Part shown: positions 18,674-53,070 of the stretch, one piece after another | Numbering within the stretch: the stretch's first letter is position 1 | Layout: every line of letters starts with the position of its first letter | Origin: Halichondria panicea | Lineage: Eukaryota; Porifera; Demospongiae; Suberitida; Halichondriidae | DNA: 64,000 bases | Direction: 5' to 3' | NCBI RefSeq assembly: GCF_963675165.1 | Contig: NC_087389.1 | Location: 902,001-966,000, forward strand | Position numbers and translations under genes: made by a program | The notes under the pieces: generated by a model | Seen by the model: only the letters and a program-made list of their open reading frames with translations | Database searches by the model: none | What the model was told of the DNA's origin: nothing

Positions 18674-18921
18674 ATGGACGGCGTAACAGCGAATGCAACA
18701 GGCAATACAAAAATTAACCCGGTAGGAGAGCACGCTCAGTTCCCTGTAATACCACAATCACTATTTCTAGGATGGCATAATTATAATTTTGCGAAAAACT
18801 TTTGTAATTTTGCACCAGTACTACTCTAGCGTTATACATGCTCCACTCTATTTCACAGATTTCCCTGCCCAAGATGAACTGCGATGATCATAAAGGCTGC
18901 CCGCCATGTGTTATTCTCTAA
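18674..18921 (+). CDS. Short two-exon protein ending in a CaaX box (CVIL)
   Basis: Coding exons 18674-18721 (MDGVTANATGNTKINP, phase 0) and 18859-18921 (ISLPKMNCDDHKGCPPCVIL, stop) give 36 aa. A 5' UTR intron runs from about 18571 to 18651. The last four residues CVIL form a CaaX box with terminal Leu, the class recognised by geranylgeranyltransferase I, and two Cys precede it (CPPC). An AATAAA polyadenylation signal starts at 18932, eleven bases after the stop, supporting a real terminal exon. The product would be a small membrane-anchored peptide. It resembles the terminal exons at 25815 and 28519 (ending CTIL). No known family is recognised; heterotrimeric G gamma subunits share such CaaX ends but are about 70 aa long and helical, which this is not. 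Confidence 0.6.
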
Positions 18922-18937: not shown

Positions 18938-20284
18938 CATCACTGACAGCTGTAAAAGATCAATGAAACTACAAAACTGAGAGCTCAGAATGTCTAAAAT
19001 AGCAGGATATATTAATTGTAAATCATAAGACAGTACTGTTAGGTAGCAATTAATACAGCTCATTATTATTATTTTTCTAAACTCCTTTTTTTTAATCTGT
19101 TTCTTAATTTGTAATGGTAGTTGTGTTTGTCTATATAAATTATGGTTTGTTGCTCTCTTAAGTCAAGTGCTGGTGTAAGGTAACTAAGGACTGGGTGGTT
19201 CTAACAAGAGCCTAACTAGATAAATGCAAAGTGTCAGAGACAACAGAGCCAGCCCTACACACTTGGGTCAAGTGGATGCTCCTCTAACAAAAACAACAGC
19301 AGACAATAAAGGCTCTTTGATGGTCAGGTTATCAGGAGAACTACAAGCTGTTAAAGAGATAGTTGATCTTAGAACTAGAGCTGTGGGTGATTGTGTTGAG
19401 AGGAACATTTCCTAGCAGACAGAATTGAATTTAGCTGAAGTGATTATGGTTTGAGCTGGAAATTCCTCTCCTACTCACAACCCTCCCAACCACAAGGGTA
19501 GTACCACAATCACATAATGAATGAATACTCATAATGCCAGGTCACAAGTGGGAGTACTAAGAAACATGCATATCAGTAAACACAGAGCACTGACTGTACT
19601 AGGAAAACTCACACTGTTTGCTTATTCTACTTCCAGGTAGCTATGACAACAGCTATGACAACAAGCCTTGACATTCCCAACACTGCATGGAACAAAATGA
19701 ACAGACACATGATATAGCATTGCCATACATGTATATAGTACTTTTTATAAATGGTGTGAATAATACAATTATCCTACACACAACAAGACAGGTATAAGCC
19801 ACACAAATATGAATGAACCTGGGACAGAAAAACAGAGACACCCTCTAGTTGCTCATCTCACAAGATGATTTGTGTATAGTCACACCTATATTGCATCCAT
19901 TTCATGATAAAACACCCATGAACATAAGTATAGGTATAGGACCTACTGGACACCAATAATGATAGGACTGTGAAATCCTAATTGTCAAACAAGCTTCACA
20001 ATTCTTATACACACTTGTAGCTCAATGTTCACAATATGGCTATAGCTGATCACACACACAATTATGGGATTGATGATACTGAATGCATGACTGAATGCAG
20101 ACCACTTATATACATTGCCGGGGCGAACCCAGGGGGTGACCCATCGATAAGAGAAGCTGACATAGGGACTGTCCCGGGGAAAGGCCACGGCAGAAAGAAA
20201 AAACACAATAACTTCCGGAGAGGTCACAAAGGTGACGATCTGTTAAGGGGAATGACATACACACACCATACTCACTGGAAAACA
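18938..20284. other. Spacer between P1 and P2 genes
   Basis: No firm gene. A phase-0 open stretch after actag at 19214-19303 could be a further terminal exon (29 codons, INAKCQRQQSQ... ending SRQ), but the polypyrimidine tract is poor. A 63-codon ORF at 19224-19415 in another frame has no recognisable domain. Both are unassigned. Confidence 0.4.
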
Positions 20285-20760
20285 GCTTGTGGTGGTGAGC
20301 ATAGTAGTGCTCTGCTCACTAATGAGTCTGCCGCCAGACTCTGGCTCATGGTTTGTTCATAAGTGTACACTACTACAACCTCTGACACTCATAGCAACCA
20401 GTACTAACCTGTATGTCAATCCACTTAACATTATGGTACAAAATGTGCATCAAAGCAACCCACTGTTCAGATTGGCCATTGCCGCAATCTCATTAGCCCA
20501 CTATACCACTATCGGGCTGCTGCTATCGTGCTCCATCACCTGGTGAGTAGCACGAGGTGCTGCCATGGCAAGTAGTACCCAATCATGCCCACATCATATG
20601 ATCAGCCAGGCTTCGGGAAGGTTCTGAAGCAATTACGTCAGACAATTATCAATAATACATTGGCAAAAGGTCCAATCATATCACTACACGTTATGGGAAA
20701 ATGACTAGGATATTTCTACGAGCCCGGTGCTTTCCTGGAGCCCACCGTCCCTATATAACA
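20285..20760 (+). promoter_or_regulatory. Promoter P2: upstream module copy 2 plus TATA box
   Basis: Module copy 2 spans about 20285-20545 and matches copy 1 over nearly its whole length, including the ttggccattgccgcaatctc extension. A TATA box (ctatataaca) lies at 20751-20760. Upstream, 20117-20178 repeats a gacc/cccggg-rich string seen at 17945. Confidence 0.65.
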
Positions 20761-21042
20761 GCCAGCAAATTTGAGAGCTACATATCAAAGGATAGAAGGA
20801 CCAAAAGACCAAAAGATCAAAGACTCTGCAATACGTGTACCAAGAGATTTATTTGGAAAAGTACGTTCGCTGTAAATTGGTTATTTGCAGTAGTATAGTA
20901 CCTGTAATTAAGTGTACTTTCAGAGAGTACAGTAGCTGCATGGCTTACCATTGAACTCTCTGTTTTATTTTCACATTTCTCCTACAGTCCTGAGAGCTGT
21001 GCCTTCTGTTGTTGACCTGAAAAACTCAAACAAGCAATAAAA

Positions 21043-21045
21043 ATG
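21043..21045 (+). CDS. Start exon of P2 locus: a lone ATG before a donor
   Basis: The exon that follows a good acceptor (tcctacag, ends 20986) carries an ATG at 21043-21045 immediately followed by the donor gtaagt. The start exon therefore contributes one residue, Met, and leaves phase 0. Ten terminal exons that all open in phase 0 follow within 4.9 kb (21304 to 25907). Each could be joined to this ATG to give a different short protein. Transcript data are needed to show which joins are used. Confidence 0.6.
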
Positions 21046-21303
21046 GTAAGTGAAAAATATGGGGAACTTTTTTTTTGTTATGTGCAAGATTATGGAGTGT
21101 CGCAAATATTACGTTGCACCTGCATGTAACAGCAAGATTTTTACAACCCACAAAAACTGAAAAACCAGTTAGCAAAATTAATACATAATCTGATTCAATT
21201 AAGCAATTTTCTTAGACTTTACTTTCTCAACACACTGTGCAAAAAGTGCAAAACAAATCAGCTAAAACAGAGAGAATTCTGAAACACAACATTTCTTACT
21301 TAG

Positions 21304-21534
21304 AGTGGTCCCAAAAGGCGCTGTGACGAAGATGAGGTCGAGGAGCTTGTTAACGAGGCAGACAAACTAGGTGACCAAGTGGGACAGATACTAGAGCACC
21401 CCCAGAACCAACCAGATCTACCACGAGAGCGGAAACTGGAGAGGCTGTTGGTTAAAGAGGAGAAAAAAGTCGAGGAATTAGTTAAAAAACTTGATAACCC
21501 TCACCCACAAAATGAACCTGATTGTTCACGATAA
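21304..21534 (+). CDS. P2 terminal exon 1: coiled-coil tail
   Basis: Phase-0 exon after acttag, 76 residues then stop: SGPKRRCDEDEVEELVNEAD at the start, ending PDCSR. It is highly charged with heptad-like Leu/Val (ERKLERLLVKEEKKVEELVK). It follows the ATG exon directly. It shares with the exons at 22028, 24057 and 24450 the plan helix - Pro-rich short loop (HPQNQPD) - helix, and a C-terminus rich in Pro, Cys and Arg. Confidence 0.65.
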   Translation, partial: SGPKRRCDEDEVEELVNEADKLGDQVGQILEHPQNQPDLPRERKLERLLVKEEKKVEELVKKLDNPHPQNEPDCSR

Positions 21535-21752
21535 AAAAAAAACTCTAACTGAAGCACTTGTATTATTATAATTATTATATTATTTTTAAACCTTGCATGT
21601 GAACACGTTTGCTATATATAGGGGGTCACAAAGTGCATACAGGTATTTGATTATTTAACGCTATTTTAAGTTATGGCTAGTTTGACTTACAGTAAAGGCT
21701 GTTGCAGTCTCTTCAAAATCTTTCATAGCATCTGTTTGCACTATTATCGTAG

Positions 21753-21875
21753 GATCCTCTTACAGTGGGAGCTGTTGTAGTCATTTGTGGAGTGGGTTGT
21801 TGGATTTGTTGCTGCTGCAAGGGCAAAAATGGTGGCAACTCCCACGATCAGAACAAGAAGGATAACTCGCGATGA
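21753..21875 (+). CDS. P2 terminal exon 2: hydrophobic plus CCCC membrane tail
   Basis: Phase-0 exon after atcgtag, 40 residues then TGA. The sequence begins DPLTVGAVVVICGVGCWICC and continues CCKGKNGG, ending DNSR. A stretch of about 14 hydrophobic residues runs into four consecutive Cys and then a Lys/Asn-rich hydrophilic tail. This is the pattern of a short membrane segment with a palmitoylated cytosolic boundary. Joined to the lone Met exon it would be a 41-residue membrane peptide. No homologue is recognised. Confidence 0.6.
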   Translation, partial: DPLTVGAVVVICGVGCWICCCCKGKNGGNSHDQNKKDNSR

Positions 21876-22027
21876 ACCAGCAAATAGAGACAATAGCTGC
21901 AGTATACCTGCAGAAAATAGATATTTAGAATGTGTATCTGACAAAACAAAACGCGATGTGTTTCAAATGCGAGCCAATAATTAAGGGGGGTAGTAAATAC
22001 AGTTATAATAATACACTTACTACACAG

Positions 22028-22348
22028 AGTCTGAGTTACAATGACAGAAAACTAAATGAGTTGGAGGGGAAGTTGAAGCAGCTGCAAGTCCAGCTGAACC
22101 AACAGAACACAGAACTGATCAACTATCCGAGGAACAAAGATACAGTGCGTCCACACTTTCAAATGACCAGGAGTACAGTAGGACAAACAAACCAGAGTAT
22201 CGAGGCCATACGACTAAACCCAGTTGGTGTTCAGCGTCCGCAACAACGTTTTCAACAAATACAACTATTACAAGGGAGCATAGCGCAGCTCATTGCTGAA
22301 ATAAACGGGCGTCTTCTACCTCAGAGTCACCCACCCTGTCCCCGTTAG
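22028..22348 (+). CDS. P2 terminal exon 3: coiled-coil tail
   Basis: Phase-0 exon after ctacacag, 106 residues then TAG, beginning SLSYNDRKLNELEGKLKQLQ and ending PPCPR. It is a predicted two-helix coiled coil: a Leu/Gln heptad region, a NYPRNKDTVRP turn, then a second helix (QQRFQQIQLLQGSIAQLI) and the conserved RLLPQSHPPCPR end. An AATAAA lies at about 22466, 115 bases after the stop. Paralogous to 24057 and 24450. Confidence 0.7.
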   Translation, partial: SLSYNDRKLNELEGKLKQLQVQLNQQNTELINYPRNKDTVRPHFQMTRSTVGQTNQSIEAIRLNPVGVQRPQQRFQQIQLLQGSIAQLIAEINGRLLPQSHPPCPR

Positions 22349-22484
22349 AGAAAGAGAGAGAGGACTTGTGCAAACTCGTTAGCTAACAATAGTTATGTAC
22401 TTGAATTATTTTAGGTATTATTAACATTAACCTTTTAACTGACTGAAAACACTACACACTGCAAATAAACTTGCATCAGAATGA

Positions 22485-22765
22485 CCCAAAAGAGAGACGG
22501 ACAGACGGCTGTAGTATCTGCAGAAAGTAGAGAACGTGTGTGATGTTTCATTGGTTACCAATTAATTAAAGGGTGATGCAGTTGTATTAATAATACGCTT
22601 AAGTTAAAGGCATAAAAAATGTAGCACAATCCTTACTATAGACAATTCTTATTCATCACTAGTAAAATTTGCTTGGTAATGGGGGCAATGGCAGCGAAAT
22701 GGTGGAAGTGTGCACCTGACAACCCCCCCCCCCAGATACACCTCGCTAGGAAAAGACTAGTATTA
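22485..22765 (+). pseudogene. Worn copies of neighbouring P2 exons
   Basis: 22500-22620 resembles the flank of the exons at 21875 and 24057 (gcagttgtattaataatacgctt is shared, written here as two parts gcagttgtatt and aataatacgctt). 22660-22765 resembles the poly-Gly exon region at 23230-23410 (aaatttgctt, cctgacaacc, gatacacct) but lacks a usable acceptor and frame. These are remnants of local exon duplication. Confidence 0.5.
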
Positions 22766-22884
22766 AAGTGATACAGTTTAACTAGGGCAAGGAGCTTTAG
22801 CATGCTTCTGACTTGCGCAATAGTAATTTTGTTTCGAAGGAGTATAATGACATGTATTTCAATAATTATTTACTGCGTATGTAG

Positions 22885-23058
22885 GGAGGGGGAAAAAAAG
22901 AAAAAACTACTTCAGCTTCTTCAACTACCACAAAAAAGCCAAAAGATGTGGCTACAAAAGAATCAACTACCTGCACCACAACCCCTACTGTCCCCCAGCA
23001 GACCAAAACAAGGCCTCATGATCACAATCCTAAACCCAAGCCTCGTTCAAAGAACTAA
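22885..23058 (+). CDS. P2 terminal exon 4: Lys/Thr-rich tail
   Basis: Phase-0 exon after gcgtatgtag, 57 residues then TAA, beginning GGGKKEKTTSASSTTTKKPK and ending KPKPRSKN. Low complexity, basic, Thr-rich, probably disordered. The acceptor context (actgcgtatgtag) matches that of the exon at 23562 (actgcgtataatag), so the two are paralogous. Confidence 0.55.
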   Translation, partial: GGGKKEKTTSASSTTTKKPKDVATKESTTCTTTPTVPQQTKTRPHDHNPKPKPRSKN

Positions 23059-23248
23059 CTGCTACTAACAGATTGTAGAATTATAGCTGTCTTCAATGAA
23101 CTTTTGATGTGAAATTAGACTTGCTAAACTGCAAACCAACAGACAAATACAAGAACTTATAGGCGTAACTTATAAGCGTAAAAAATGGAGTATAATCCTT
23201 ACTGTAGACAATATCTTATTCACCACTAGTAAAATTTGCTTTTGTTAG

Positions 23249-23434
23249 GGTAATAGAGGTGGAGGTGGGTGCCATGGTGGTGGTGGTGGCGGTGGTGGTG
23301 GTGGTGGTGGTGGTGGTGGTGGCAGTGAAAATAGTGAAAGTGATGTATATGGTGAAAGCGGGCATCCTGACAACCTCCTGGATACACCTTGCTCGAAAGA
23401 ACTAGTTAAGAACAGAAAGACACGTAGTATTTAA
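23249..23434 (+). CDS. P2 terminal exon 5: poly-glycine tail
   Basis: Phase-0 exon after ttttgttag, 61 residues then TAA. It begins GNRGGGGCHG, continues as about 14 consecutive Gly coded by a (GGT)n tract at 23276-23322, then an acidic Ser-rich part (SENSESDVYGESGHPDNLLD) and a basic end (KNRKTRSI). The Gly run is a trinucleotide repeat and likely varies in length among individuals. Confidence 0.55.
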   Translation, partial: GNRGGGGCHGGGGGGGGGGGGGGGGSENSESDVYGESGHPDNLLDTPCSKELVKNRKTRSI

Positions 23435-23561
23435 AGTGATACGGTTTGGTTTAACTAAGGCAAAGAGCTTTAGCATGCTTCTGACAAATTATTAATTTTG
23501 TGCACATAGTAATTTTGTTTCGAGGAAGTATATTTCAATGATTATTCACTGCGTATAATAG

Positions 23562-23660
23562 GAAGAAGAAAAACAAAAAGCTGAAAAGAAAGAGACGACC
23601 GAGAAAGAGACGACCACGACAAGAGACCATCCGCAGAGTAAGCCAGATATAGCTCGCTGA
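23562..23660 (+). CDS. P2 terminal exon 6: Glu/Lys/Thr-rich tail
   Basis: Phase-0 exon after gtataatag, 32 residues then TGA: EEEKQKAEKKETTEKETTTT at the start, ending PDIAR. A short charged helix followed by a Thr run. Closely related in flank to the exon at 22885. Confidence 0.5.
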   Translation, partial: EEEKQKAEKKETTEKETTTTRDHPQSKPDIAR

Positions 23661-23804
23661 TGAAAAGAAGAAAAAGTAACTGCTGCTAACATTACAAATC
23701 AGATTGTATATAATTATAGTTGCCTATCAAAATAACAATGATGTGAACTTAGACTTGATCCAAATCTAAACTGCAAACCAACAGATACTATTCATCACGC
23801 ACAA

Positions 23805-23911
23805 CAACGTTTTCAATAAATACAGTGATTGCATGAAAGCGTAAAAGAGCTCATGGATGACATAGAATGCCGTCTTTTACCTCAGAACTACCCACCCTGT
23901 CCCAGACACTA
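23805..23911 (+). pseudogene. Degenerate copy of the coiled-coil terminal exon
   Basis: The region aligns with the 3' half of the exons at 24057 and 24450 (caacaacgttttcaa, gaatgccgtctt, ctcagaactaccca) but begins without an acceptor and carries in-frame stops in the first helix. Only the C-terminal motif (ECRLLPQNYPPCP) is preserved. Confidence 0.65.
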
Positions 23912-24056
23912 GTCGCTAGAGAGAGAGAAGACTTGTACAAACTTGTTAGCTAACTATGTATTGTCATTATAACTGTTTATAGTTAACGTGCATGACGTTT
24001 CAATGGCAAACCAATCCAAAGGGTAATGCAGTTGTATTAATAATACGCTTACACAG

Positions 24057-24290
24057 GATGCCAAGGTAAAGCAGTTGGAGCAACTGCAAGGAGAACTGAC
24101 TCAACAGCAGACAGAACTGATTAACCAGCCGTGGAACAAAGAGGCAGTGCGTCCACGCTTTGAAGCGACAAAGAAGAAAGTGGAACAGACCTATGGGATG
24201 TCGATACAAATGCAAGATAGTATCAAAAAGCTCATCAATGACATAGAATGCCGTCTTCTACCTCAGAGTCACCCACCCCGTCCCCGCTAG
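24057..24290 (+). CDS. P2 terminal exon 7: coiled-coil tail
   Basis: Phase-0 exon after gcttacacag, 77 residues then TAG, beginning DAKVKQLEQLQGELTQQQTE and ending SHPPRPR. Same plan as 22028: heptad helix, NQPWNKEAVRPRF turn, second helix, ECRLLPQSHPPRPR end. Confidence 0.7.
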   Translation, partial: DAKVKQLEQLQGELTQQQTELINQPWNKEAVRPRFEATKKKVEQTYGMSIQMQDSIKKLINDIECRLLPQSHPPRPR

Positions 24291-24449
24291 AGAAAGAGAG
24301 GATTGTACAAATTCGTTAGCTTAGACTTAAATTACTGACTGAAAACATAACACTACAAAAAAAACTTGCATCAGAATGAATGTTTCAATTGCTAATTAAG
24401 GCAATAATTAATAGCCTAAGGGTATTGTATTTATACATTTAATACACAG

Positions 24450-24764
24450 AGTTACAATGAGATAAGACTTGATGAGTTGGAGGGGACGTTGAATCAGCTG
24501 AAAGAGGTGCTGCTTCAACAGAAATATGAACTGACCAGCTTTCCGGAGAACCAAGAGGACGTGCGTCCACAGTTTGAACAGACAAGCGAGGAAGTGGAAG
24601 AAGCAAATGATGGAATCACAGAGATATGGCAAAACCCGGCCGATATTAATGATGTGCAACAACGTTTTCAACAAATACAGCAATTGCAAGATAGCATAAA
24701 AGAGCTCATGGATGACATAGAATGCCGTCTTCTACCTCAGAACTACCCAGACCCTAGTCGCTAG
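24450..24764 (+). CDS. P2 terminal exon 8: coiled-coil tail
   Basis: Phase-0 exon after aatacacag, 104 residues then TAG, beginning SYNEIRLDELEGTLNQLKEV and ending YPDPSR. It is the longest intact copy with the insert NPADINDVQQRFQQ shared with 22028 (NPVGVQRPQQRFQQ). More acidic than its paralogues. Confidence 0.7.
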   Translation, partial: SYNEIRLDELEGTLNQLKEVLLQQKYELTSFPENQEDVRPQFEQTSEEVEEANDGITEIWQNPADINDVQQRFQQIQQLQDSIKELMDDIECRLLPQNYPDPSR

Positions 24765-25279
24765 AGAGAGAGAAGACTTGTACAAACTTGTTAGCTAATA
24801 ATAAAAAATTGTGTATTGTAGCTGCATTATAAATTACTTTTTAACTGTTTTAACTGACTGAAAACACTGTAGATTGAGGTCAGGTGTGAATTGCATTTGT
24901 CACTAATAAATTAAAAAGACAAGAGATTACCAGAGGGCAGTAATAGATAAACAAGGGGAAAATGACAATAAATTTGGGCTCAAAGACCATAATTTTACTC
25001 ATTAAGAGCTAGAAAGACTGAAATTTATGGCACATAATTAGAGTACAATATAAAATTATCATTACAAACACTGATTGCTTCCTCCTATACGACCCAGTCA
25101 CTATATACTTACGGGGGTGATCTTGATCCCTACGACAGCAATCCTCATCCATTGATTGTTGTATGCCAGCTAGTTAAGCACAATCAAACGTGCACTATAA
25201 TTATGCCCTAGCATGAAGAAGCATGTACGTAACTTTATGCCATGTACCACCCACTGCATTGACTGCATTGCCACCGTAG

Positions 25280-25618
25280 GCAAGCCGATATGTCTGTAAA
25301 AGAACGCAAGGTCAAAAGACACTTCAACAACTGACGCTTAAAGAACTGAAGGCCGAGATGGAAGCAATGAGGGATGAGCATAATGATCAGAAGAGGGCAT
25401 TACTTCGTCGGCCGACTTCAATAGAGAGAGGTGTAGTGCTGGCACAGTATCAAAAGACAAGGCAAGGAGTAGTGGAATTGCAGGACGCGATAAAAGAGAT
25501 ACTAAAGTTTCCACAGAACACGGAGAGCTTGCCACGAAATGGCGGAGATGTGAAGCAGGCAATACGACAACTGGAGAGAGAGATAAATCTGCTTCAACAA
25601 GAGATTGATCAACTTTAA
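25280..25618 (+). CDS. P2 terminal exon 9: coiled-coil tail
   Basis: Phase-0 exon after gccaccgtag, 112 residues then TAA, beginning ASRYVCKRTQGQKTLQQLTL and ending LLQQEIDQL. Strong heptads (LKELKAEMEAM, IRQLEREINLLQQEIDQL) with a Pro/Arg turn (RRPTSIERG). It lacks the Pro/Cys/Arg end of the other coiled-coil exons. Confidence 0.6.
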   Translation, partial: ASRYVCKRTQGQKTLQQLTLKELKAEMEAMRDEHNDQKRALLRRPTSIERGVVLAQYQKTRQGVVELQDAIKEILKFPQNTESLPRNGGDVKQAIRQLEREINLLQQEIDQL

Positions 25619-25814
25619 ACACAACCATAGCAAGGACATGGACATTTAGAGACTTAATTATAGAGAAATATGTATACGTAATCTGCAACATTTATTTTTG
25701 TTGACATACTATAAATAATTATCAATAATACAACCTTTCAACTAACTTTAAACATAATAATTATACCGTTAGTGCTTAGAATTTGTGTGTAATTATGACT
25801 CCTTCCTCCCATAG

Positions 25815-25907
25815 GACCCAGTCACCACCTACGCTGACCATGACCATAATTGCCCCGAGCCATCAAGGCCTAAACCTACTGAGGGGTGGAGTTGTACCAT
25901 TCTCTAA
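25815..25907 (+). CDS. P2 terminal exon 10: CaaX tail (CTIL)
   Basis: Phase-0 exon after tcccatag, 30 residues then TAA: DPVTTYADHDHNCPEPSRPK at the start, ending TEGWSCTIL. CTIL is a CaaX box with terminal Leu (geranylgeranyl class). The same exon with a basic upstream segment occurs at 28519. A worn third copy (gacccagtcactata) without acceptor is at about 25090. Confidence 0.6.
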   Translation, partial: DPVTTYADHDHNCPEPSRPKPTEGWSCTIL

Positions 25908-26140
25908 TTCAAGCTGCCTCAGAAGAAGGAACGCTTTTATTAGCTGATCTAGCTTAGATACATATCATAGTTCAAATGCGAATTGTGTTTGTCAAAAATG
26001 TAATGTAAGCCAGAAGACTATTAATTTTACACAATTATCTGGTAATTAAAGCTCATTAACAGCTATTATTCAGCTTTGAAATTAGCAACTCTAGGTCAAG
26101 TTGTTATGGGCACACATAAGCTCTTAATAGTACCACTGTT

Positions 26141-26211
26141 AGCCTCGATCCCAGGCCCTTGGAAAAGAGGGCCTGGTTCTCTCCTTTCCTGGTGGCCTGG
26201 GATCGAGGCTA
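26141..26211. repeat. Palindromic repeat, copy 1
   Basis: Arms agcctcgatcccaggcc and ggcctgggatcgaggct flank a short loop. The same hairpin recurs at 26676, 28846 and 29377. It looks like a short foldback (MITE-like) family. Confidence 0.85.
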
Positions 26212-26277
26212 CTACACCACTGTATGAGCTAGTAGCTTACTGACCATCACTTTGCATTCTCCATACAATATACGTAG

Positions 26278-26322
26278 GTCATGGCCATTCCAAGTAGATC
26301 TGACAGACAGCAATCTGGAGAG
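26278..26322 (+). CDS. Possible 45-nt cassette exon, copy 1
   Basis: AG acceptor (atacgtag) and GTAAGG donor flank 45 bases open in phase 0 (VMAIPSRSDRQQSGE, contains an ATG). The duplicate at 28969-29013 keeps both splice sites and the frame. It could be an alternative start exon or an inserted cassette. Evidence is only site conservation between recent duplicates, so weak. Confidence 0.3.
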
Positions 26323-26675
26323 GTAAGGTAAAATAGTTGACAATGTATAGCTAAAAAAGATGTGGTGTTCTACGCATGGGACTGTAGATATGTGCCTCTC
26401 ACCCCTTTACAGTATATTCATGCAATGCCAGGAACAATGCCAGCACAGCACAGAGATGCTGCCTATATACAGAGAGAGAACAAACAATGGCACTGAATGT
26501 TCTGTAAACATTGTGTGGTCCCTACCACCCCAAACTGAACTCATACAACCAACTGTGCAGGCTGCTGCACAACTGTGCACAAATTTCTTGCACAAAATTC
26601 CTTGCACAAAAAATGCACAAGTAGGGTTTCACTCAATATAGAACACAATGAAGTGCTAGCTCAGCACAAACCATG

Positions 26676-26721
26676 TAGCCTCGATCCCAGGCCCTTTGAG
26701 AGCGGCCTGGGATCGAGGCTA
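26676..26721. repeat. Palindromic repeat, copy 2
   Basis: Compact version of the hairpin: tagcctcgatcccaggccc and gcggcctgggatcgaggcta with a loop of a few bases. Confidence 0.85.
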
Positions 26722-26929
26722 ACCTACATGTAGCTATGCCATTACAGTAATAAGGACATTATACAGTGAATCATCCACCCACATCCTAACAATAAGAACA
26801 CTAAAACATGTACTCCCTAGCTGTTACTAGAGCACATAATACTTTAGCCTACAAAATGATGGAAACACCTATTGTATGCAATGGGACTGTAGATATGTGC
26901 TCAATTGAACTATCTCTCACCTATTTGCA

Positions 26930-27020
26930 GTATATCCAGTGAGGAACAAAGCCAGCCCAGCACAGGAGATGATTCCTACAGAGAGAAAATGAACAGTGAA
27001 CAATGAATGTCACTGAATGT
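26930..27020. repeat. Dispersed repeat of the cluster (copy 1 of 5)
   Basis: A block containing gaactatctctcacc, cagtatatccagtgagg, aacaaagccagcccagcaca and gagagaaaatgaacagtg. Further copies lie at about 29635-29730, 37135-37245, 43900-43990 (shortened) and 51225-51335, each 0.5-0.7 kb upstream of an upstream module or replacing it. It is part of the duplicated promoter-side unit. Confidence 0.75.
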
Positions 27021-27509
27021 ACATGTAGTGATTTTCTGTGAAAATTGTGGTTGTGCTATATACATGTGCCCCAAACTGAATCCTTACACCTTACAGTGTG
27101 CAATGAGCCCCTGCAGTTTTGCACAGTTGTGCACAAAATTCCTTGCACAAAGAAATTGCTACTTAAAAATAATTATGCACAAGTAGGGTTTCATTTAATA
27201 GAATACAATGAAGCTAGCTCAGCACAAACCAATGTTACCTACTGGTAGCTATGCCATTACAGTAATTAGGACATTATATACAGTGAACTATCCACCCACA
27301 TCCTAACAATAAGAACACCATAACATGTAGTCCATCTTTTCCCTAAGAGCCTGTTACTAGGACACATACCTACACTAGCCATAATTATTCTACAAAAATT
27401 AATGAGGGTACTATGGAAATGAACACCTATTCACACAAAAAGCATGAAAAGCATGGAAAGAAATGAAGTTAGTAACAGGGCAAATGTCAGCTAGATTGCA
27501 CCTAGGGAA

Positions 27510-27980
27510 TTCTGTGGTGTGGTGAGCATAGTAGTTCCACTCCAGAGCTGCTTAGGCTAATGAGTCTGCCGCCAGACCCTGGCTCATGGTTTGTTCATCA
27601 GTGTACACTACTACAACCTCACACTCATAGCAACCAGTACTATCTGTATGTCAATGCACTTAACATTATGGTACAAAACTTAATGAGACAAACAACATCC
27701 CAGAAATACTGCCGCAGGTAGTGAGAATCACATGAACTGTACGATAAGCAGGCCACCTGATAAGGGGACACTACTGCTATCGATGAATAGGTCATTCTTT
27801 GCTATCGATGAATAGCGAAAAGACCTCTATTAAGGTTCGGTAGCTCCCCGAAATACTAGTTCTTGCTTAGTCAGGCTATACGTAATTAGAGAAAGTAGCT
27901 ATTTTTGGAGAAAGTGACGTTAGCAAGTTAGCAAGATCGTAGATAGGTGCCTAGGATTTGAGAGAGTATAAAAAAAAATC
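27510..27980 (+). promoter_or_regulatory. Promoter P3: upstream module copy 3 plus TATA box
   Basis: Module copy 3 runs from 27510 and, unlike copies 1-2, continues with cttaatgagacaaacaacat, agaaatactgccgcagg and a direct repeat gctatcgatgaatag at 27776-27790 and 27801-27815. Then come gagaaagtgacgttagc (CRE-like half site TGACGTTA next to GAAAGT) and the TATA box gagtataaaa at 27965-27974. Confidence 0.65.
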
Positions 27981-28079
27981 AGACTCTATAAGCGGAAGAT
28001 ACAAACTACGATTGGACTCATTATTCTTGAGTTAATTTCGACCCCATTGATTCAAAGTAAAAGACTTCAATTACACAAC

Positions 28080-28413
28080 ATGGATAGCCCAGTGAGTTGA
28101 GATTTGTGTGTATTTAATTAATATTGTAAACATGTTGATATCTACGTACGTAAGTACCTACCAATTCAATTCGATGTCTAAACGAAACCAGTGCAGAAAG
28201 ATTAGTGGGCTTATACTGATCCGATACAAAAATTATGTTCAATAGGGTCTACCTGTGGAAATTGATTGCAAAGAATGGGAATGTAACCACTACATTCAGT
28301 ATGTGAATGACTACCAATGTGGGCATAAATTTCGGTTGTGCACAAATTGTGCATATAGTCCAGCTTACCGAACGTGCATGTTTGATGGAGCAAACAGGGC
28401 TCTATATATATAA
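28080..28413 (+). CDS. P3 gene, zinc-module isoform (WxCNH type)
   Basis: Start exon 28080-28091 (MDSP, phase 0) joined to terminal exon 28246-28413 (55 residues then TAA) gives 59 aa. The exon begins GLPVEIDCKEWECNHYIQYV and carries the spaced ligands C-x4-C-x-H ... YQCGH ... LCTNC ... CMFDG, a RING-like or treble-clef-like Cys/His array that should bind zinc. It is the shortest member of the family and lacks the FSP/LSP tail of its paralogues. Its tandem paralogue is 31122-31349. Confidence 0.65.
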
Positions 28414-28518
28414 AATATCAGTAATACAACCTTTCAACTAACTTTAAACATAATGATTATACGTAGTGCTTAATTAGAAGTTATTATTGTATGTAATTAT
28501 GACTCCTTCCTCCCATAG

Positions 28519-28605
28519 GACCCAGTCACCACCTACGCTGGCCATGACCAAAATCCCTCCGAGCCAAAGCGTAAATCTTCTCGGTGTAATTGTACCATTC
28601 TCTAA
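28519..28605 (+). CDS. P3 terminal exon: polybasic CaaX tail (CTIL)
   Basis: Phase-0 exon after tcccatag, 28 residues then TAA: DPVTTYAGHDQNPSEPKRKS at the start, ending SRCNCTIL. A Lys/Arg cluster (KRKSSR), a spare Cys and the CaaX box CTIL resemble the dual membrane signals of small GTPases such as K-Ras4B and Rho proteins. It would join the MDSP start exon in phase 0. It is the duplicate of 25815-25907, from which it differs mainly by the gain of basic residues. Confidence 0.6.
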   Translation, partial: DPVTTYAGHDQNPSEPKRKSSRCNCTIL

Positions 28606-28845
28606 TTCAAGCTGCCTCAGAAGAAGGAACGCTTTTATTAGCTGATCTAGCTTAGATACATATCATAGTTCAAATGCGAATTGTGTTTGTCAAAAATGTA
28701 CTGTAAGCCAAAAGACTATTAATTTGACACAATTATCTGGTAATTAAAGCTCATTAACAGCTATTATTAATTATCTCAGCTTTGAAATTAGCAACTCTAG
28801 GTCAAGTTGTTATGGGCACACATAAGCTCTTAATAGTACCACTGT

Positions 28846-28902
28846 TAGCCTCGATCCCAGGCCCTTGGAAAAGAGGGCCTGGTTTCTCTGGGATTGAGGC
28901 TA
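28846..28902. repeat. Palindromic repeat, copy 3
   Basis: Duplicate of the hairpin at 26141 with a shorter, slightly mismatched right arm (gggattgaggcta). Confidence 0.8.
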
Positions 28903-28968
28903 CTACACCACTGTATGAGCTAGTAGCTTACTGACCATCACTTTGCATTCTCCATACAATATACGTAG

Positions 28969-29013
28969 GTCATGGCCATTCCAAGTAGATCTGACAGACA
29001 GCAATCTGGAGAA
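28969..29013 (+). CDS. Possible 45-nt cassette exon, copy 2
   Basis: Duplicate of 26278-26322 with acceptor atacgtag, donor gtaagg and open phase-0 frame kept. The last codon changed from GAG to GAA. Confidence 0.3.
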
Positions 29014-29376
29014 GTAAGGTAAAATAGTTGACAATGTATAGCTAAAAAAGATGTGGTGTTCTATGCATGGGACTGTAGATATGTGCCTCTCACCCCTTTA
29101 CAATATATTCATGCAATGCCAGGAACAATGCCAGCACAGCACAGAGATGCTGCCTATATACAGAGAGAGAACAAACAATGGCACTGAATGTTCTGTAAAC
29201 ATTGTGTGGTCCCTACCACCCCAAACTGAACTCATACAACCAACTGTGCAGGCTGCTGCACAACTGTGCACAAATTTCTTGCACAAAATTCCTTGCACAA
29301 AAAATGCACAAGTAGGGTTTCACTCAATATAGAACACAATGAAGTGCTAGCTCAGCACAAACCATGTACCTACATG

Positions 29377-29422
29377 TAGCCTCGATCCCAGGCCCTTTGA
29401 GAGCGGCCTGGGATCGAGGCTA
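29377..29422. repeat. Palindromic repeat, copy 4
   Basis: As copy 2, but with longer arms: ctacatgtagcctcgatcc and ggatcgaggctaacctacat. The extension of the arms suggests the palindrome includes flanking target sequence. Confidence 0.8.
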
Positions 29423-30237
29423 ACCTACATGTAGCTATGCCATTACAGTAATAAGGACATTATACAGTGAATCATCCACCCACATCCTAACAATAAGAAC
29501 ACCAAAACATGTACTCCCTAGCTGTTACTAGAGCACATAATACTTTAGCCTACAAAATGATGGAAGCACCTATTGTATGCAATGGGACTGTAGATATGTG
29601 CTCAATTGAACTATCTCTCACCTATTTGCAGTATATCCAGTGAGGAACAAAGCCAGCCCAGCACAGGAGATGATTCCTACAGAGAGAAAATGAACAGTGA
29701 ACAATGATTCTGAACAATGTCACTGAATGTACACATAGTAATTTTCTGTGAAAATTGTGGTTGTGCTATATACATGTGTCCCAAACTGAATCCTTACACC
29801 TTACAGTGTGCAATGAGCCCCTGCAGTTTTGCACAGTTGTGCAGAGTTGTGCACAAAATTCCTTGCACAAAAAAATTGCATGCTTAAAAATAATTATGCA
29901 CAAGTAGGGTTTCACTTAATAGAATACAATGAAGTGCTAGCTCAGCACAAACCAATGTACCTACTGGTAGCTATGCCATTACAGTAATTAGGGCATTATA
30001 TACAGTGAACTATCCACCCACATCCTAACAATAAGAACACCATAACATGTAGTCCATCTTTTCCCTAAAAGCCTGTTACTAGAACACATAATACCTACAC
30101 TAGCCATAATTATTCTACAAAAATTAATGAGGGTACTATGGAAATGAACACCTATTCACACAAAAAGCATGAAAAGCATGGAAAGAAATGAAGTTAGTAA
30201 CAGGGAAAAATGTCAGCTAGATTGCACCTAGGGAATT

Positions 30238-30700
30238 CTGTGGTGTGGTGAGCATAGTAGTTCCACTCCAGAGCTGCTTAGACTAATGAGTCTGCCGCCA
30301 GACTCTGGGCCATGTTCATCAGTGTACACTACTACAACCTCTGACACTCATAGCAACCAGTACTACCTGTATGTCAATGCACTTAACATTATGGTACAAA
30401 ACTTAATGAGACAAACAACATCCCAGAAATACTGCCGCAGGTAGTGAGAATCACATGAACTGCACGATAAGCAGGCCACCTGATAAGGGGACACTACTGC
30501 TATCGATGAATAGGTCATTCTTTGCTATCGATGAATAGCGAAAAGACCTCCTTTAAGGTTCGGTAGCTCCCCGAAATCCTAGTTCTTGCTTAGTCAGGCT
30601 GTACGTAATTCGAGAAAGTAGCTATTTTCGGAGAAAGTGACGTTAGCAAGTTAGCAAGATCGTAGATAGGTGCCTAGGATTTCCGAGAGTATAAAAGAAT
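30238..30700 (+). promoter_or_regulatory. Promoter P4: upstream module copy 4 plus TATA box
   Basis: Near copy of P3 including the gctatcgatgaatag direct repeat and gagaaagtgacgttagc, with a consensus TATA box tataaaag at 30690-30697. A 5' UTR intron follows (donor near 30800, acceptor tgttgcag at 30865). Confidence 0.7.
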
Positions 30701-30895
30701 TGGGCTCTACAAGCCGAAGATAGGAGCAAATTATTGGACACCACATTCAAGATTGGAAATCTCATAAACAAAGGCGAAACAGACACACCAAGGAAAATTG
30801 GTGAGAGGGAATGATTCTTCTTCAAAATACAGTAATGTGACTGTATAAAAATAATTTTGTTGCAGACCCCAGTTGTTTTGGATCAACAAAAAGAG

Positions 30896-31632
30896 ATGGC
30901 ATCACAAGTAAGTAGTAACTTGCATTTACTGTACATGTACATGTAGGCAACATTTAAAATTAAATACCAGTACTCACCATATTGAAGAATAGCTTCTGAC
31001 TCAGCTACCGCCTCCTGCAAATCAAAAACACAAGAGATTAAAACGTAACTAGCTACATATAGTATAATTATATACGTAACATAATATCATAATCCCCTCC
31101 CCCCCCAAATATTGCACTCAGTCTACTTTACCTGTAACGATCGAGCCGAAGGACTGGGAATGCAATCATACCTATTATCAACAAGTAGATTATCAATGCG
31201 GCCACCGTTACTGGTTATGCAAAGAATGTGCAAATAGTACTGAGTTCAAATATTGCTTGTTCGATCGCACTGAAAAGCGACCAAGTGTTGGTAGTCCCCA
31301 AACACGAACAAAGCTTCCTAAGGGCACCAAATTTTCTCCTGTTGCATTTGTAAGTTATAAACCAAAAAATGGTCAAAAATTTAAATTACCACAATCATAT
31401 ACAGATGGCTTGTAACCATGATGACGAGCATGAGCACGACGAGGTTCCTTACAGCTGTAAACATAGGATTACCATGTGTGATCACTGTTACAACTCTTTT
31501 CCGCAATGTCCTTTTGATGATGGAGGTGTGTGGGCTTCGAGCGAGGACTGTCCTTGGAATGAAGATCCGAGCATTGCTAGGGGACGCACACCAAAGAAAG
31601 ACACTTCTTTCTCCCGGGCTTCTAGTTCCTAG
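30896..31632 (+). CDS. P4 gene, start exon MASQ and zinc exons A1 / A2
   Basis: Start exon 30896-30907 codes MASQ in phase 0. Exon A1 (31122-31349) begins STLPVTIEPKDWECNHTYYQ and contains YQCGHRYWLCKECANS...YCLFDR, then FSPVAF before a gtaagt donor; if that donor is not used, the frame reads on to a stop at 31415. Exon A2 (31405-31632, phase 0) begins MACNHDDEHEHDEVPYSCKH and contains MCDHCYNSFPQCPFDDGG, ending in a stop. A1 and A2 could therefore be spliced together, giving a two-module protein of about 155 aa, or used singly. Each module has the ligand order C-N-H, C-x-H, C-x2-C, C. A zinc-binding function is inferred from spacing; the family is not one I can name. Confidence 0.65.
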
Positions 31633-31752
31633 ATAAAACAAACAGTATATATAAAATATATATCTATATAATTATGCAAATGTAGAGAGATTAGAACAGC
31701 ATTATTGTACAATAGTGATAATTATAACTGTTGTAATTACTGTGTAAAATAG

Positions 31753-32061
31753 AAGAGGCAATTGGAAAGAGAGCGTAAGAAATGGACGGACGACGTCTGG
31801 AAAGATTGGGCATGTAATCACTCCCATACATATGGACGTATACGCTATCAGTGTGGGCATACCCTCGATATGTGTCATGCATGTCATGAGGCATTTACTC
31901 GATGTCCATTTGATGGCACATGTCGAAACCCATTGCCAGGGGAGATACAGCTTCAGGCAACTACTTGGGGGTATCAACCACCAACACCACCAACACCACC
32001 CGCTCCCAAGCCTCCAAAGGGGACGACTCTCTCTCCAGTGTGGTATGCTCCTTCTGAGTGA
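31753..32061 (+). CDS. P4 terminal exon A3: zinc module with Pro-rich tail
   Basis: Phase-0 exon after aaaatag, 102 residues then TGA, beginning KRQLERERKKWTDDVWKDWA. It has a basic helix, then WACNHSHTYGRIRYQCGHTL with MCHACHEAFTRCPFDG, then a Pro/Thr tail (PPTPPTPPAPKPP) and the shared end motif GTTLSPVWYAPSE. It is alternative to A1/A2, A4 and the CPGC exon. Its 3' half is duplicated at 46187-46332. Confidence 0.65.
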   Translation, partial: KRQLERERKKWTDDVWKDWACNHSHTYGRIRYQCGHTLDMCHACHEAFTRCPFDGTCRNPLPGEIQLQATTWGYQPPTPPTPPAPKPPKGTTLSPVWYAPSE

Positions 32062-32221
32062 GGAAGAGAAAACAGAGAACTTGAACTGACTTTAGATTCT
32101 TTAGCTGTATCTATAAGTCCTTATAAAACAATGAATGCTGTGTTTTTAGTCTCTAGCTATAGCTATGTATAATACACATAGAATTGGTGTTTTAGATTAT
32201 TGGCATCTTGTATATACGTAG

Positions 32222-32470
32222 ACAAACCTGAAAAAATGGACTCACTGGGCTTGCAACCACAGTAACGACTATCACTACACAGGAGTCAGCTATACGTGTG
32301 GGCATTCCTTCACACTATGTGAGACTTGCTATCATGCCTTTTCAAGAAACTGTCCCCTCGGTGACGGAGGGGAAAGTAGGCCTACTCCTGGATTGGGTCG
32401 CAGAAGACGTGACGTAGAAGCCAAATGGGGCACAACCTTCTTCCCAGCAATGCCTGCCGGAGGGCTGTAG
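32222..32470 (+). CDS. P4 terminal exon A4: zinc module
   Basis: Phase-0 exon after tatacgtag, 82 residues then TAG, beginning TNLKKWTHWACNHSNDYHYT, with YTCGHSFTLCETCYHAF, NCPLGDGG and an end GTTFFPAMPAGGL. The tail motif (T-T-F/L-F/S-P) is shared by A1, A3 and the P5 exons. Confidence 0.65.
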   Translation, partial: TNLKKWTHWACNHSNDYHYTGVSYTCGHSFTLCETCYHAFSRNCPLGDGGESRPTPGLGRRRRDVEAKWGTTFFPAMPAGGL

Positions 32471-32874
32471 ATAACTGAACTGAAAGAAAACATTAATAAT
32501 GTAGATATTATTATATTATACTTTGTAAAGTGCATATTTAATGAATCAACAAATGAATGACATGTACAAATAGACTTAGGTACTGTAGTACTAGAAGGTT
32601 TTGCGAGTATCAAACATATGTGAGCGTTGATCAATTCGCAACAATAAATCGCAAAACCTAAATTAGTACTGGTAAATACACATGATCCTTGACAGAACGC
32701 AGATCGCAAAGGGCCAATTTTGCTGATTTGGCTCATTCGCAAAGGTTTTTCACCAGCAAAATATTCTACAATGTAGTAATACGGTACCATGATCATAATT
32801 ATGTGAGTATAATTATTGATAAACCTACATAAGGTATAATCATAATCATTAGAATGTTGTTGTTCACCTCACAG

Positions 32875-33063
32875 GCGCAAGGGGGTGCTCCAGCATCACA
32901 TGATTTACCACCGCCACCTCCAGTCTGCCCGGGGTGCGACATGAAGGTTCCACTGAAGTGGCGTACTGAGTTCCAGTGTCCCGACCACTATCTGTGTGAT
33001 GACTGTGCTAACAGAACACAGTGTCCAGAACATCCAGGATCAAAGAGAAGATTCATACAATAA
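32875..33063 (+). CDS. P4 terminal exon B: CPGC zinc module
   Basis: Phase-0 exon after cacctcacag, 62 residues then TAA, beginning AQGGAPASHDLPPPPPVCPG. The ligands are CPGC ... FQCPDH ... LCDDC ... QCPEH, an eight-ligand (C2-CH-C2-CH) pattern of cross-brace type, distinct from the WxCNH modules, followed by a basic end GSKRRFIQ. Joined to MASQ it gives 66 aa. It is the last exon before the convergent channel gene, whose stop is 256 bp away. Confidence 0.7.
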   Translation, partial: AQGGAPASHDLPPPPPVCPGCDMKVPLKWRTEFQCPDHYLCDDCANRTQCPEHPGSKRRFIQ

Positions 33064-33318: not shown

Positions 33319-36300
33319 TCAGTTCTCTGGAGTAGCTTCTTCCTCTTGATCAGACACTCTTGACACCCTGTTATTGTCATGTGAGCTGGGTGGGGCTGGG
33401 GCTGGGGGGTAAAACTCATGTGGATCCAAACTCATCTGACTGGACATTCGCCTCCTAGCAGCGGATGGAGCCTGCTGCTCTGTGCCCAGAGGTGGAAAGA
33501 CTGAGTTGGTAGGGCTGAACGTCCCAGAGTCAAAGGAGGTACGAGTGTCTGTGCTGTCGGCTTGACTGTTCTCAATGGGGGGGGGCTGCTCGGGTGAGGG
33601 GTTAGGCTCAGCTGAATTATGACCCCGGGGAGCTACAGAAATGAATAAGTTCGATGGCTAGTCGAGGTGAAAAGCAGGCTATCCCCAAAAAACCTCAAAC
33701 AAATAGGAATGAGGTCGATGAACAAGCATTTATTTACCTGTACGGATCTGAGGAACTCGGCTGATGGTCACTTCTGGCATGAGGATAATCTTTCCCACAT
33801 ACTTGTAGGCAATCATCTCAAAGATGCAGGGGGTGCTCCCACAATCAACCTTGATACCGGGGAACCCGTCCACAACATGTGTAATTTTATACGGTGCAAT
33901 CTTTGTATTCACTTCACGATTGTGAAATTTATGGTCAAACAACCTGCAAAAAATGATTAGGATCGATACTGTACATAACCAAATGGCCTACTGACAGTTT
34001 AGAAGGCTCATATTTGAAGAAACGTTGCTGGACTTTAGTAGCTCCTATCTTCAGTGGACGGATGGCTAGCAAGATGGCATTTTCGCCAATGCGGCCAGCC
34101 CCATAGAGTGCATTAAGAAAGAGGTTAACTGTGTATGTAAAAACAAAGCAAGTGCAGCAATGGAAATTGATATGTAGTCGACTACATACCACTGACAAGT
34201 TTTGATTCCTCAGTGATCGGGGCTATCACAATAAAGTCCAGTCTTGGGTACGGTATTCCTGGTCCTGATGGTAAATTCTTTAGAAATTTGAGCACTAGCG
34301 ACTGAGCCTAAGATGAACAAAATTACCGATCAATTAACTTTTTTAGGATTCTCACAGTGTTAGTCTAGAGTTATTGAGTAGATCAACAATCACACCAATG
34401 TTTTCCTTGAAAATGAATGTACCCAAGATAAAGATAATCAATCACACACTCACCCCAGTGATGCTTTCCGTGGACTGAGAGTAGAGATTGTCAGGGAACT
34501 TAAATGTGACATAATTGGTATAAAATTCATCCTTAAGTGTGGGATTTTCACTGGTGTTCTGGTAGTGAGGTTGAAAGTTGACAGACAGAACCTGAGCATT
34601 CAGTTCGAGGAAAGATAAGGCCAACCAACACAATAGATGTAGCTACATTTTGTACCTTAACAAAGGGCCTAGCCATAATTAGTGAGTAACCAATGGAGCC
34701 AAATGAGATGTCTAAGGCAAGGTCATTCTTTAGTTGTGGCTCCAATGCAGTTTCATCGTAGTGAGGGCCAAAGTTGGTCACAAACCAAAATATAACGTCA
34801 CGAATACCTTTCATGTACTCCTGCAGATCAGAATGATAATAGACGAGAGAGTGTGGGTATTTGTAATGTACATGCATGACATACCTCCTGATACTCGATT
34901 CTTCCAAGATGGGGTTTGAAACGCTCATAAGCAATTTTCTCTGCATTTCCATTGAATCCTGCCGTGTGGAAAAGTCTATGAAAATCATCAGTTGCTCGCT
35001 GCTCATGAGTGGCCTGTTCAGGTTGTTGTTGACCATCTGTTTGATCTAAGTAACGAAAACATATTTTGTTCAGTTATAGGCTGTATGAATAATTATAATC
35101 ATACCTGTTATGGGATTGGGTACACCAGAATCAGAACGGTTCTGATTTCCGCAAAACAGACTGGTTAACCAACTGCAGCAACCTACAAAGGAGAGTGGAG
35201 AATGATGCCTTTCACCACAAATGTGGCATTGGGAAGAAACTAATGCAAGCTATGGAGGACAAATGCACACCTATATCTTCCTCCTCCTCCTCTGCGGTAT
35301 TTTCCGGTTGTAGGTCATTAGACGGGACGATATCTGGCAGATCCTGTTGGATACTAATGTACAGGTGAAGAAGCTGATGATCTCTTCCAAGCAGTCTCTT
35401 CAGCTCCTTGCTCGTCTGTACATTACAACATTGTCATTTATGTGTATACACACACACAGGGACCTCACTTGGATATCTTTGAAGACTTGTCCATGGCTTG
35501 TGTCAGCTCTGAACAGCATCAACAGGAGGAAGTCAAGGTCATGAAGGATTCCGGGGTAGATAATGTATCTTGGGTGAAACTTGAGGTAATGGGTAAGGGG
35601 CCATAAACGATTTATCCAACGACGAGCACATTTAGATTTATTTTTCTCAGTGGTAAAACAAGGGTAGGTGGGCCAGGATACCACGGGTGGGAACACGAAA
35701 TGATCAGGCTTTAGACAACTTTGAAAAGAGAATTTTGCAAGTTCAAAATAACCTAGCTGTTCAGTATGCCGTACTGCGCACCACCCGAGGGCGTACAGAA
35801 CCAGTCCAGCTGCAATCGTTAGGAGGAAGAAATCAGCATAGCGTACCAGATTCAACACCCGTAGACTTGTGTAGACACAGGGAACAGTAACGTTCAAGGG
35901 CCAACCACAAGGAGTGCCTAAGTGCTCCTCAGGGCATGTGAAGTCATCAACACTGTCACCAGGACAGAAGAAAACAAACGAAAAGTTTTTGAAGTAAAGT
36001 GCACTGAGTATCACTGACCCACAGACTATTATCAGCTGTAATACCAGTTTAAGGATATAAGTGTAGTAAATTTTCCGTCCGCTATATTCTTGCTCCAGCT
36101 TTGTCACACGATCAAAGTTATTGGTGTCATATTCCCCAGTGGTGCTATCTCGTAGACGGTCCAGTTTATCCACAATCAAGAAGAAGCTGTCAAAATCTCC
36201 ATTGTGAAGAGCATTCCATATGTAGTGTGGAACGATAAGGAGAAGGCCATGAATGAGAATGTATATCGGGAAATATTCTGTATTTGGAACGTTCCTTGCA

Positions 36301-36584
36301 CAGTAGTTGTTGATGTAGCTGGTCTGTCCTTGGCCGAACTCATAGAGCATCCTCCCCTCCAGGTCCTGAGCTGTGATGCCCACATTATCAGAGGGTGGGA
36401 AGCAGGACACACCCCCTCCCCTCAGAAACTCCACAGTCACATTGAGCACAGACAGTGCAAGAATAGCTGAGGCAATGTACTTGATGAATTGGTCCCAAAA
36501 AAACTCCTTTGGTTCAATGGAAGAGCTTTCCTTCTTCTTCTCACTGTTAACAAGGTCATACACTCCTTTCACTGCATCAGCCAT
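33319..36584 (-). CDS. Channel gene A: LRRC8/pannexin-like pore domain with novel C-terminal domain
   Basis: Ten exons, complement(33319-33632, 33738-33943, 33996-34128, 34190-34307, 34454-34591, 34656-34820, 34885-35045, 35105-35182, 35271-35415, 35469-36584), join in frame to about 857 aa. The first exon (372 aa) has four hydrophobic segments at about 33-54, 104-124, 175-197 and 249-269, with paired Cys in the two outer loops (61, 95; 207, 217, 226, 236), and after TM4 the motif LHDLDFLLLMLFRADTSHGQ, like the DLAFLLHLIDQYDP stretch of LRRC8. The fold is thus probably the large-pore LRRC8/pannexin/innexin type at the plasma membrane. Then come a linker with GCCSWLTSLFCGN (possible palmitoylation) and a domain of about 300 residues, conserved in all four copies (DISFGSIGYSLIMARPFVK, LDFIVIAPITEESKLVS, ILLAIRPLKIG, GSTPCIFEMIAYKY), then a disordered Ser/Pro tail. 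No leucine-rich repeats. Confidence 0.88.
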
Positions 36585-38258: not shown

Positions 38259-38962
38259 ATGGCATCACAAGTAAGTAATTATAGTAACTTGCATGCAAAT
38301 GTACATGTACACGTTCAACCTAATTTAAAATAGATACAGATACTCACCATTATCGAAGAATAGTTACTGACTCAGTTACTTTCTCCTGCAAAGCAAAATG
38401 TAATTTAGTGCAAAAAAGTAACAGCTACGAGTCGTAATATATTTATGTATCATAATCCTCTCCCAAAATAGTGCATTCAGTCTGAATGATCTAGCCGAAG
38501 GACTGGGAATGCAATCATGCCTATTATCATCAGCAAAAGAATTTTTTGTAGATTATCTATATTATAGAGAGGGGTAGTTGTACTGGAATGCATATAACAC
38601 TGTGGCTATGAGTGCAAACAGAAGTGCATGTGCAAAAAAATACACATTTAGGCTCACTATAGTTAATATTTACAAGGTAAGAAAATTGTAGAGCACACTT
38701 ACAATGAATTTGCATACAGGGTCTCAACGAATGGAAGTACTGGGAGTGTAACCATACTTGTTACACTGAAGTAACGTACCGGTGTAATAAACATCACATC
38801 AAGCTTTGCTTTGTCTGTGCACATAGTACGAAGTTTAGAGCATGCCCTTTTCCACATTGTCGGGAGGCTCGTATCCATCCAAACCCTAATGTTGACCAAG
38901 ACAACGTAACAAGGCTCCACGATGGCACAACTCTTTCTCCAATCTTTAAAGTTATAGTTTGA
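38259..38962 (+). CDS. P5 gene, start exon MASQ and zinc exon 1
   Basis: Start exon 38259-38270 codes MASQ in phase 0, identical to P4. Terminal exon 38720-38962 (80 residues then TGA) begins GLNEWKYWECNHTCYTEVTY and contains YRCNKHHIKLCFVCAHS and ACPFPHC, ending DGTTLSPIFKVIV. A His pair (NKHH) replaces the usual CGH, so the third ligand pair is slightly altered. Between the two lies a worn remnant of exon A1 (38485-38535, ccgaaggactgggaatgcaa) with no intact frame. Confidence 0.65.
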
Positions 38963-39133
38963 AGTTTTTCTAAACGGAGAAAAAAACATTGGTGATAGAT
39001 GAACCGATACGAAGTAGATCGAGCTCTGATTTGTAGCTTGTAGATCGATATGCATGCATGTGTTTGTAATACTTAATTGTTTCTGTAGATAATTATGTAT
39101 ATTAATTTTGTGATAAATTAAATTAACATACAG

Positions 39134-39394: not shown

Positions 39395-39621
39395 AGAACA
39401 AAACACAAAAGACATTGTAGCAACTGAAAGTGTGTGTGTAGCAAAACTATGAACATTTTTAACTTTTTTAGTGATAGTTTTTTTTTTAACTTGAGAACAA
39501 TTGACTATAGCTACTAGTGAACACAATTAAACAATCGGGTTTGGTCATACAAATATGAGATCTCAGGGATGCGTATAATCACGAAAAATAATTCGCATAT
39601 CTATATTTCCCTTACATGCAG

Positions 39622-53031: not shown

Positions 53032-53033
<2 letters not shown>

Positions 53034-53067: not shown

Positions 53068-53070
<3 letters not shown>

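Follow-up and report, generated by a model that had tools for sequence, protein, structure and literature searches.

A sponge locus in which a single start codon exon may be joined to many alternative terminal exons

In a stretch of 64,000 nucleotides (nt) from the sponge Halichondria panicea (assembly GCF_963675165.1, contig NC_087389.1, positions 902,001 to 966,000; hereafter the window, numbered from its first letter), a start exon whose only codon is ATG is followed by ten open segments that all begin in the same phase (Table 1). We consider it likely that this is a gene with one donor and many acceptors, and that the plan is common to a family of neighbouring genes. The case is built on the anatomy of the sequence, the agreement of phase, the scarcity of donors, leaders free of ATG and signals of selection on the exons of the sister genes.

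The lone ATG had been proposed in an earlier note, and its coordinates are correct: the codon at 21043–21045 abuts GTAAGTG beginning at 21046. Between 20700 and 26000 it is the sole ATG that reaches a GTRAG donor in phase 0 within 40 codons or fewer. Further downstream (21052–25910), GTRAG occurs once on the + strand, where 11.3 instances are expected and none of 500 shuffles is as low, and nine times on the opposite strand. When donor scarcity was assessed for four patterns in nine regions, a clear shortage was seen only for the GTRAG and GTRAGK forms, and only in this locus. Ahead of the ATG, a probable leader intron spans 20861–20987.

Each of the ten segments starts directly after an AG, is open from its first base and runs to a stop, as the earlier note had it. 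That note also listed their lengths as multiples of three. The lengths are as described, but as evidence this is a tautology, since any open segment from acceptor to stop has this property by definition, and we rejected it. More telling is that Met is absent from six of the ten and that in seven the acceptor itself forms an in-frame TAG; an in-frame ATG further upstream can therefore not reach such segments unspliced. Neighbouring segments are separated by 127–536 nt (127–218 nt in six of ten). Given these gaps, the evidence for a shared start and the scarce donor, what remains is one donor with many acceptors.

How many such segments would be expected by chance depends strongly on the acceptor. 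If any YAG in 21046–25950 is accepted, the + strand holds 20 segments of at least 30 amino acids (aa) against 14.9 in shuffled sequence (24 of 300 shuffles reach 20), so raw counts at this length are near chance and were discarded as evidence. Longer segments stand out even here, with nine of at least 57 aa against 2.0 and three of at least 100 aa against 0.08 (none of 300 shuffles in either case); the reverse strand has six and two, respectively. With a filter demanding AG-exclusion (no AG in the preceding stretch) and some pyrimidine, the + strand yields 14 segments of at least 28 aa against 4.2, and seven of at least 57 aa against 0.45, again reached by none of 300 shuffles. On the reverse strand the filtered counts are 16 against 11.3 (19 of 300 shuffles) and, at 57 aa or more, three against 2.35 (114 of 300). 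The filtered scan returns all ten segments and four more (21133, 22171, 23983 and 25098). As a set the segments exceed chance. About four short ones could be chance, and the short members need other support. Some such support exists for eight of the ten; the segment at 21753, which has its acceptor as sole support, and the poly-Gly segment at 23249, whose counterpart near 22675 is without the AG and interrupted by an early stop, are unproven.

From these features a mechanism can be proposed. A single pre-mRNA would start from the TATA promoter at 20752. Its leader of about 134 nt, predicted to lack any upstream ATG, would end in the lone initiator ATG, right at the one strong phase-0 donor that the locus has. 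From this donor at 21046, splicing would lead to a single one of the acceptors downstream, of which there are about eight and no more than ten. As all acceptors are in phase 0, each junction would yield Met followed by an entire short protein up to its stop codon. The predicted products would be coiled-coil-like proteins, K/E/T-rich peptides and one protein with the end CTIL, which we take to be CaaX-like; a hydrophobic, Cys-rich product is possibly made as well. The earlier note's reading of one promoter, an ATG start exon and phase-0 terminal exons is the best-supported one, with the segments lacking Met, the TAG-forming acceptors, the gaps of 127–536 nt and five sister genes in its favour. 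Ten separate last exons, by contrast, are unproven. Only for 22028, 23562, 24450 and 25815 does an AATAAA or ATTAAA stand between the segment and the following acceptor, and 3' ends would probably lie at about four places, with some choices made between acceptors that precede a common poly(A) site and others between last exons. Four 3'-end groups are the simplest refinement and count against ten full last exons. Transcription, splicing and the choice of 3' ends are, like any function, predicted here from sequence.

The locus is one of six tandem genes on the + strand across 18–53 kb of the window, a setting that the earlier note does not mention, and all six seem to follow the same plan. A search of the genome (131 Mb, 39 contigs) found six matches to the upstream repeat, all within the window and each 360–471 nt ahead of a TATA box. 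Every gene combines a copy of this repeat, the TATA box, a predicted ATG-less leader and a start exon ending at a phase-0 donor. The start exons have 1–16 codons (3–16 residues in the five sister genes), and the sister genes carry one to five terminal exons each. Gene 1 is the weakest of the six; it was read by eye and had been missed by the scan for segments of at least 28 aa. Most sister terminal exons appear to encode small zinc-finger-like domains, and eleven of this kind carry signals of purifying selection. Their products look like divergent zinc fingers. To call them RING proteins is not justified, as their best score to the zf-C3HC4_3 profile is 17.5 bits, below the curated cut-off of 27. 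For zinc-finger-like type one (A2) no match in PDB was found at E≤1; an exon of type two (A3) had weak matches, the best at E 0.034 to Sequestosome-1. A structure model of a sister exon product reached a mean predicted local distance difference test score (pLDDT) of 78.9. In gene 4, the first of the terminal exons (31122–31415) contains a phase-0 gtaagt at 31350 and might in addition act as an internal exon before 31405. A relic at 46187–47090 corresponds to the 3' half of this gene and has neither a promoter nor a start exon; it includes a copy of exon 32875 that is out of frame by two extra bases.

The products of the ten segments had been described as unrelated in type. This applies only in part: 22028, 24057 and 24450 are paralogs, and 22885 and 23562 occupy the equivalent place in a duplicated unit, both being open with 8 of 32 aligned residues identical. 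For the segment at 25815 there is an open copy at 28519, within a direct duplication (25710–28001 and 28405–30722, 93.7% identical) that carries the CaaX-ending exon and the next promoter and is most diverged at both ends. Accelerated change in 25815 relative to this copy (12 of 87 positions against 53 of 2174 elsewhere) was considered and rejected, because the sequence immediately ahead of this exon differs by 11% as well and is situated at the margin of the duplication. Open relatives of the main-locus segments (P0002–P0006) exist in other assemblies, and relatives in the protein databases are annotated from internal starts, without the shared start; the protein-database searches left out exons 21304, 21753, 22885, 23249, 23562 and 25815. 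Outside the genome, no relatives were found in the viral contigs or genome contigs searched.

Several observations weigh against a one-donor, many-acceptor gene. Phase 0 is found in 18 of 20 acceptable acceptors, or 16 of 17 with the best acceptor per exon, but the 23 acceptors had been picked ahead of the AG-exclusion test, and many exons are paralogous, so that these counts are not independent. The looser donor form GTRNGT is not scarce in the main locus (9 against 7.1 expected), nor are donors scarce in genes 3–6. The poly(A) hexamers follow only four of ten segments, and the four gaps that hold them are also the four longest. The proportions of nonsynonymous and synonymous differences (pN and pS) show no signal of purifying selection in the main coiled-coil pair 22028/24450 (0.31 and 0.30), and for 25815/28519 they are 0.26 and 0.16. 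In all six comparisons with P0001–P0006 the substitutions are no more conservative than under a neutral model. Finally, further TATA-like sites lie at 21615, 23707 and 25049, and 22028, alone among the segments, has an in-frame ATG 72 nt upstream, which is not seen at its paralogs 24057 and 24450.

Part of this would fit what is mostly a decaying array of duplications, in which the ATG exon works with just one or two segments, the others being relics or stretches open by chance. Such an array could account for the near equality of pN and pS in both pairs, the non-conservative substitutions, the decayed pieces at 23789–23953 and 25089, the poly-Gly counterpart without acceptor and the roughly four filtered segments expected by chance. 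It leaves the excess of seven filtered segments of at least 57 aa unaccounted for; moreover, the frame stays open at 30% divergence without gaps, both relics that lost their acceptor have lost the frame too, and P0002–P0006 are open. We regard it as unlikely. Tandem separate small genes, all with individual promoters and start codons, are very unlikely: no other ATG reaches a GTRAG in phase 0, the six gaps of 127–218 nt leave too little room for a 3' end, a promoter, a leader and an intron, and the lack of Met and the TAG-forming acceptors speak against them too, whereas the three TATA-like sites, the ATG before 22028 and a Met at residue 27 of 25280 would be in their favour.

Trans-splicing is also very improbable, be it with the ATG exon as a spliced leader or, in the manner of mod(mdg4), with terminal exons that are transcribed separately. 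Spliced-leader genes usually are present in many copies, whereas the leader region 20560–21060 has a single match in the genome; this region includes a TATA box and probably a leader intron of its own, and it stands at the head of the array. What makes the idea attractive is a flatworm spliced leader, described as ending in AUG directly before GU and possibly supplying the start codon (PMC12582326), the same arrangement as here. That leader acts in trans on many genes, in contrast to a single-copy leader region at the head of its own array. As all start and terminal exons are in one phase, exchange between genes would preserve the frame.

The one-donor, many-acceptor gene proposed here can be compared with known systems. 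In Drosophila lola the shared 5' part codes for a BTB domain. Twenty last exons, 17 with zinc fingers, are described for lola (PMC10551640), and mod(mdg4), which uses trans-splicing, likewise has a shared BTB-coding 5' exon (PMC4667647). Here, too, the sequence shows a 5' exon with a donor ahead of several putative, mutually exclusive terminal coding exons in the phase of that donor, and sister genes 4–6 carry several zinc-finger-like last exons. However, the shared part consists of Met alone or of 3–16 residues instead of a BTB domain, so the isoforms would share no domain, and start exons coding for 1–16 residues do not point to common descent with lola or mod(mdg4). New, among the systems compared here, would be a common part that consists of nothing but Met. 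Each late reading frame of adenovirus has a start codon of its own, whereas here the leader would supply it; no kinship with this viral system is claimed. The adenovirus major late unit, with one promoter and a common leader, gives about 20 mRNAs by alternative splicing in five poly(A) families (PMC4346872), similar to the about ten acceptors and four predicted poly(A) groups here. A cellular example of one first exon common to different proteins is the tick ChAT/VAChT locus (PMC7524744), where it is spliced to two unrelated proteins, compared with up to ten here. Judged by titles and the openings of abstracts, no description of such arrays in sponges was found in the literature searched.

If the model is true, one animal promoter and start codon serve many proteins, with exon choice setting the entire protein, an extreme among alternative-last-exon genes such as lola. 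Six paralogous loci offering 2–10 choices would then make it possible to test how a single donor selects one acceptor out of many. Genes of this kind would be missed or broken up by gene finders and by Met-first rules, as with the relatives in the protein database that were called from internal starts. One may go further and see the promoter with its start-codon leader as a duplicated plug-in module and the phase-0 terminal exons as cassettes that neighbouring genes gain, lose and exchange with the frame intact, a cellular counterpart of the adenovirus late unit that yields a fast-changing set of proteins sharing only Met, perhaps with exchange by splicing in cis or trans; this extension is tentative and we rather doubt it. 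A fast-evolving role in signalling or recognition, which would fit the tandem turnover beside pannexin-like genes, is a guess.

Table 1. Features of the main locus and its sister genes (window coordinates)
Feature	Position	Strand	Remarks
Upstream repeat	20281–20553	+	one of six copies in genome search
TATA box TATATAA	20752–20758	+	
Predicted leader exon 1	20782–20860	+	start assumed 30 nt after TATA box; start and donor GTACGT at 20861 inferred
Leader exon 2	20988–21045	+	last codon ATG 21043–21045; donor gtaagt at 21046
Terminal segment 1	21304–21534	+	76 aa, charged/coiled-coil-like, no Met; single copy in genome
Terminal segment 2	21753–21875	+	40 aa, hydrophobic with Cys cluster; unproven, length within chance
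Terminal segment 3	22028–22348	+	106 aa, coiled-coil paralog
Terminal segment 4	22885–23058	+	57 aa, K/T/P-rich; partner of 23562
Terminal segment 5	23249–23434	+	61 aa, poly-Gly across GGT repeat; doubtful
Terminal segment 6	23562–23660	+	32 aa, E/K/T-rich
Decayed coiled-coil segment	23789–23953	+	no acceptor, two in-frame stops
Terminal segment 7	24057–24290	+	77 aa, coiled-coil paralog
Terminal segment 8	24450–24764	+	104 aa, coiled-coil paralog; relatives P0002–P0004
Decayed copy of CaaX segment	25089–25200	+	acceptor AG changed to AC, early stop
Terminal segment 9	25280–25618	+	112 aa, coiled-coil-like; relatives P0005 and P0006
Terminal segment 10	25815–25907	+	30 aa, ends CTIL (taken as CaaX-like)
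Gene 1	18674–18921	+	16-codon start exon from 18674; terminal exon 18859–18921 ending CVIL
Gene 3	28080–28605	+	start exon MDSP at 28080; terminal exons 28246–28413 (zinc-finger-like), 28519–28605 (CTIL)
Gene 4	30896–33063	+	start exon MASQ at 30896; terminal exons from 31122, 31405, 31753, 32222, 32875, all zinc-finger-like
Gene 5	38259–39825	+	start exon MASQ at 38259; terminal exons from 38720, 39134, 39622
Gene 6	52223–53256	+	start exon MSQ at 52223; terminal exons from 52605 and 53074 (or 53029)

The window also codes for a homeodomain protein and for pannexin/innexin-like proteins, with matches of animal type. Tandem pannexin/LRRC8-like copies lie on the - strand at 35400–36584, 41938–43080, 49374–50558 and 54877–56082, convergent with sister genes 4 and 5, a relic and gene 6, respectively; the first was assigned by Pfam and the other copies by similarity. 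A duplication (44506–46181 and 56800–58457, 90% identical) adjoins a TPR-repeat gene. A short inverted-repeat element, tagcctcgatcccaggccc, is located at 26140–26211, with copies near 26676 and 29377. The minisatellite at 5886–6231 is open in more than one frame on both strands and codes for repeats.
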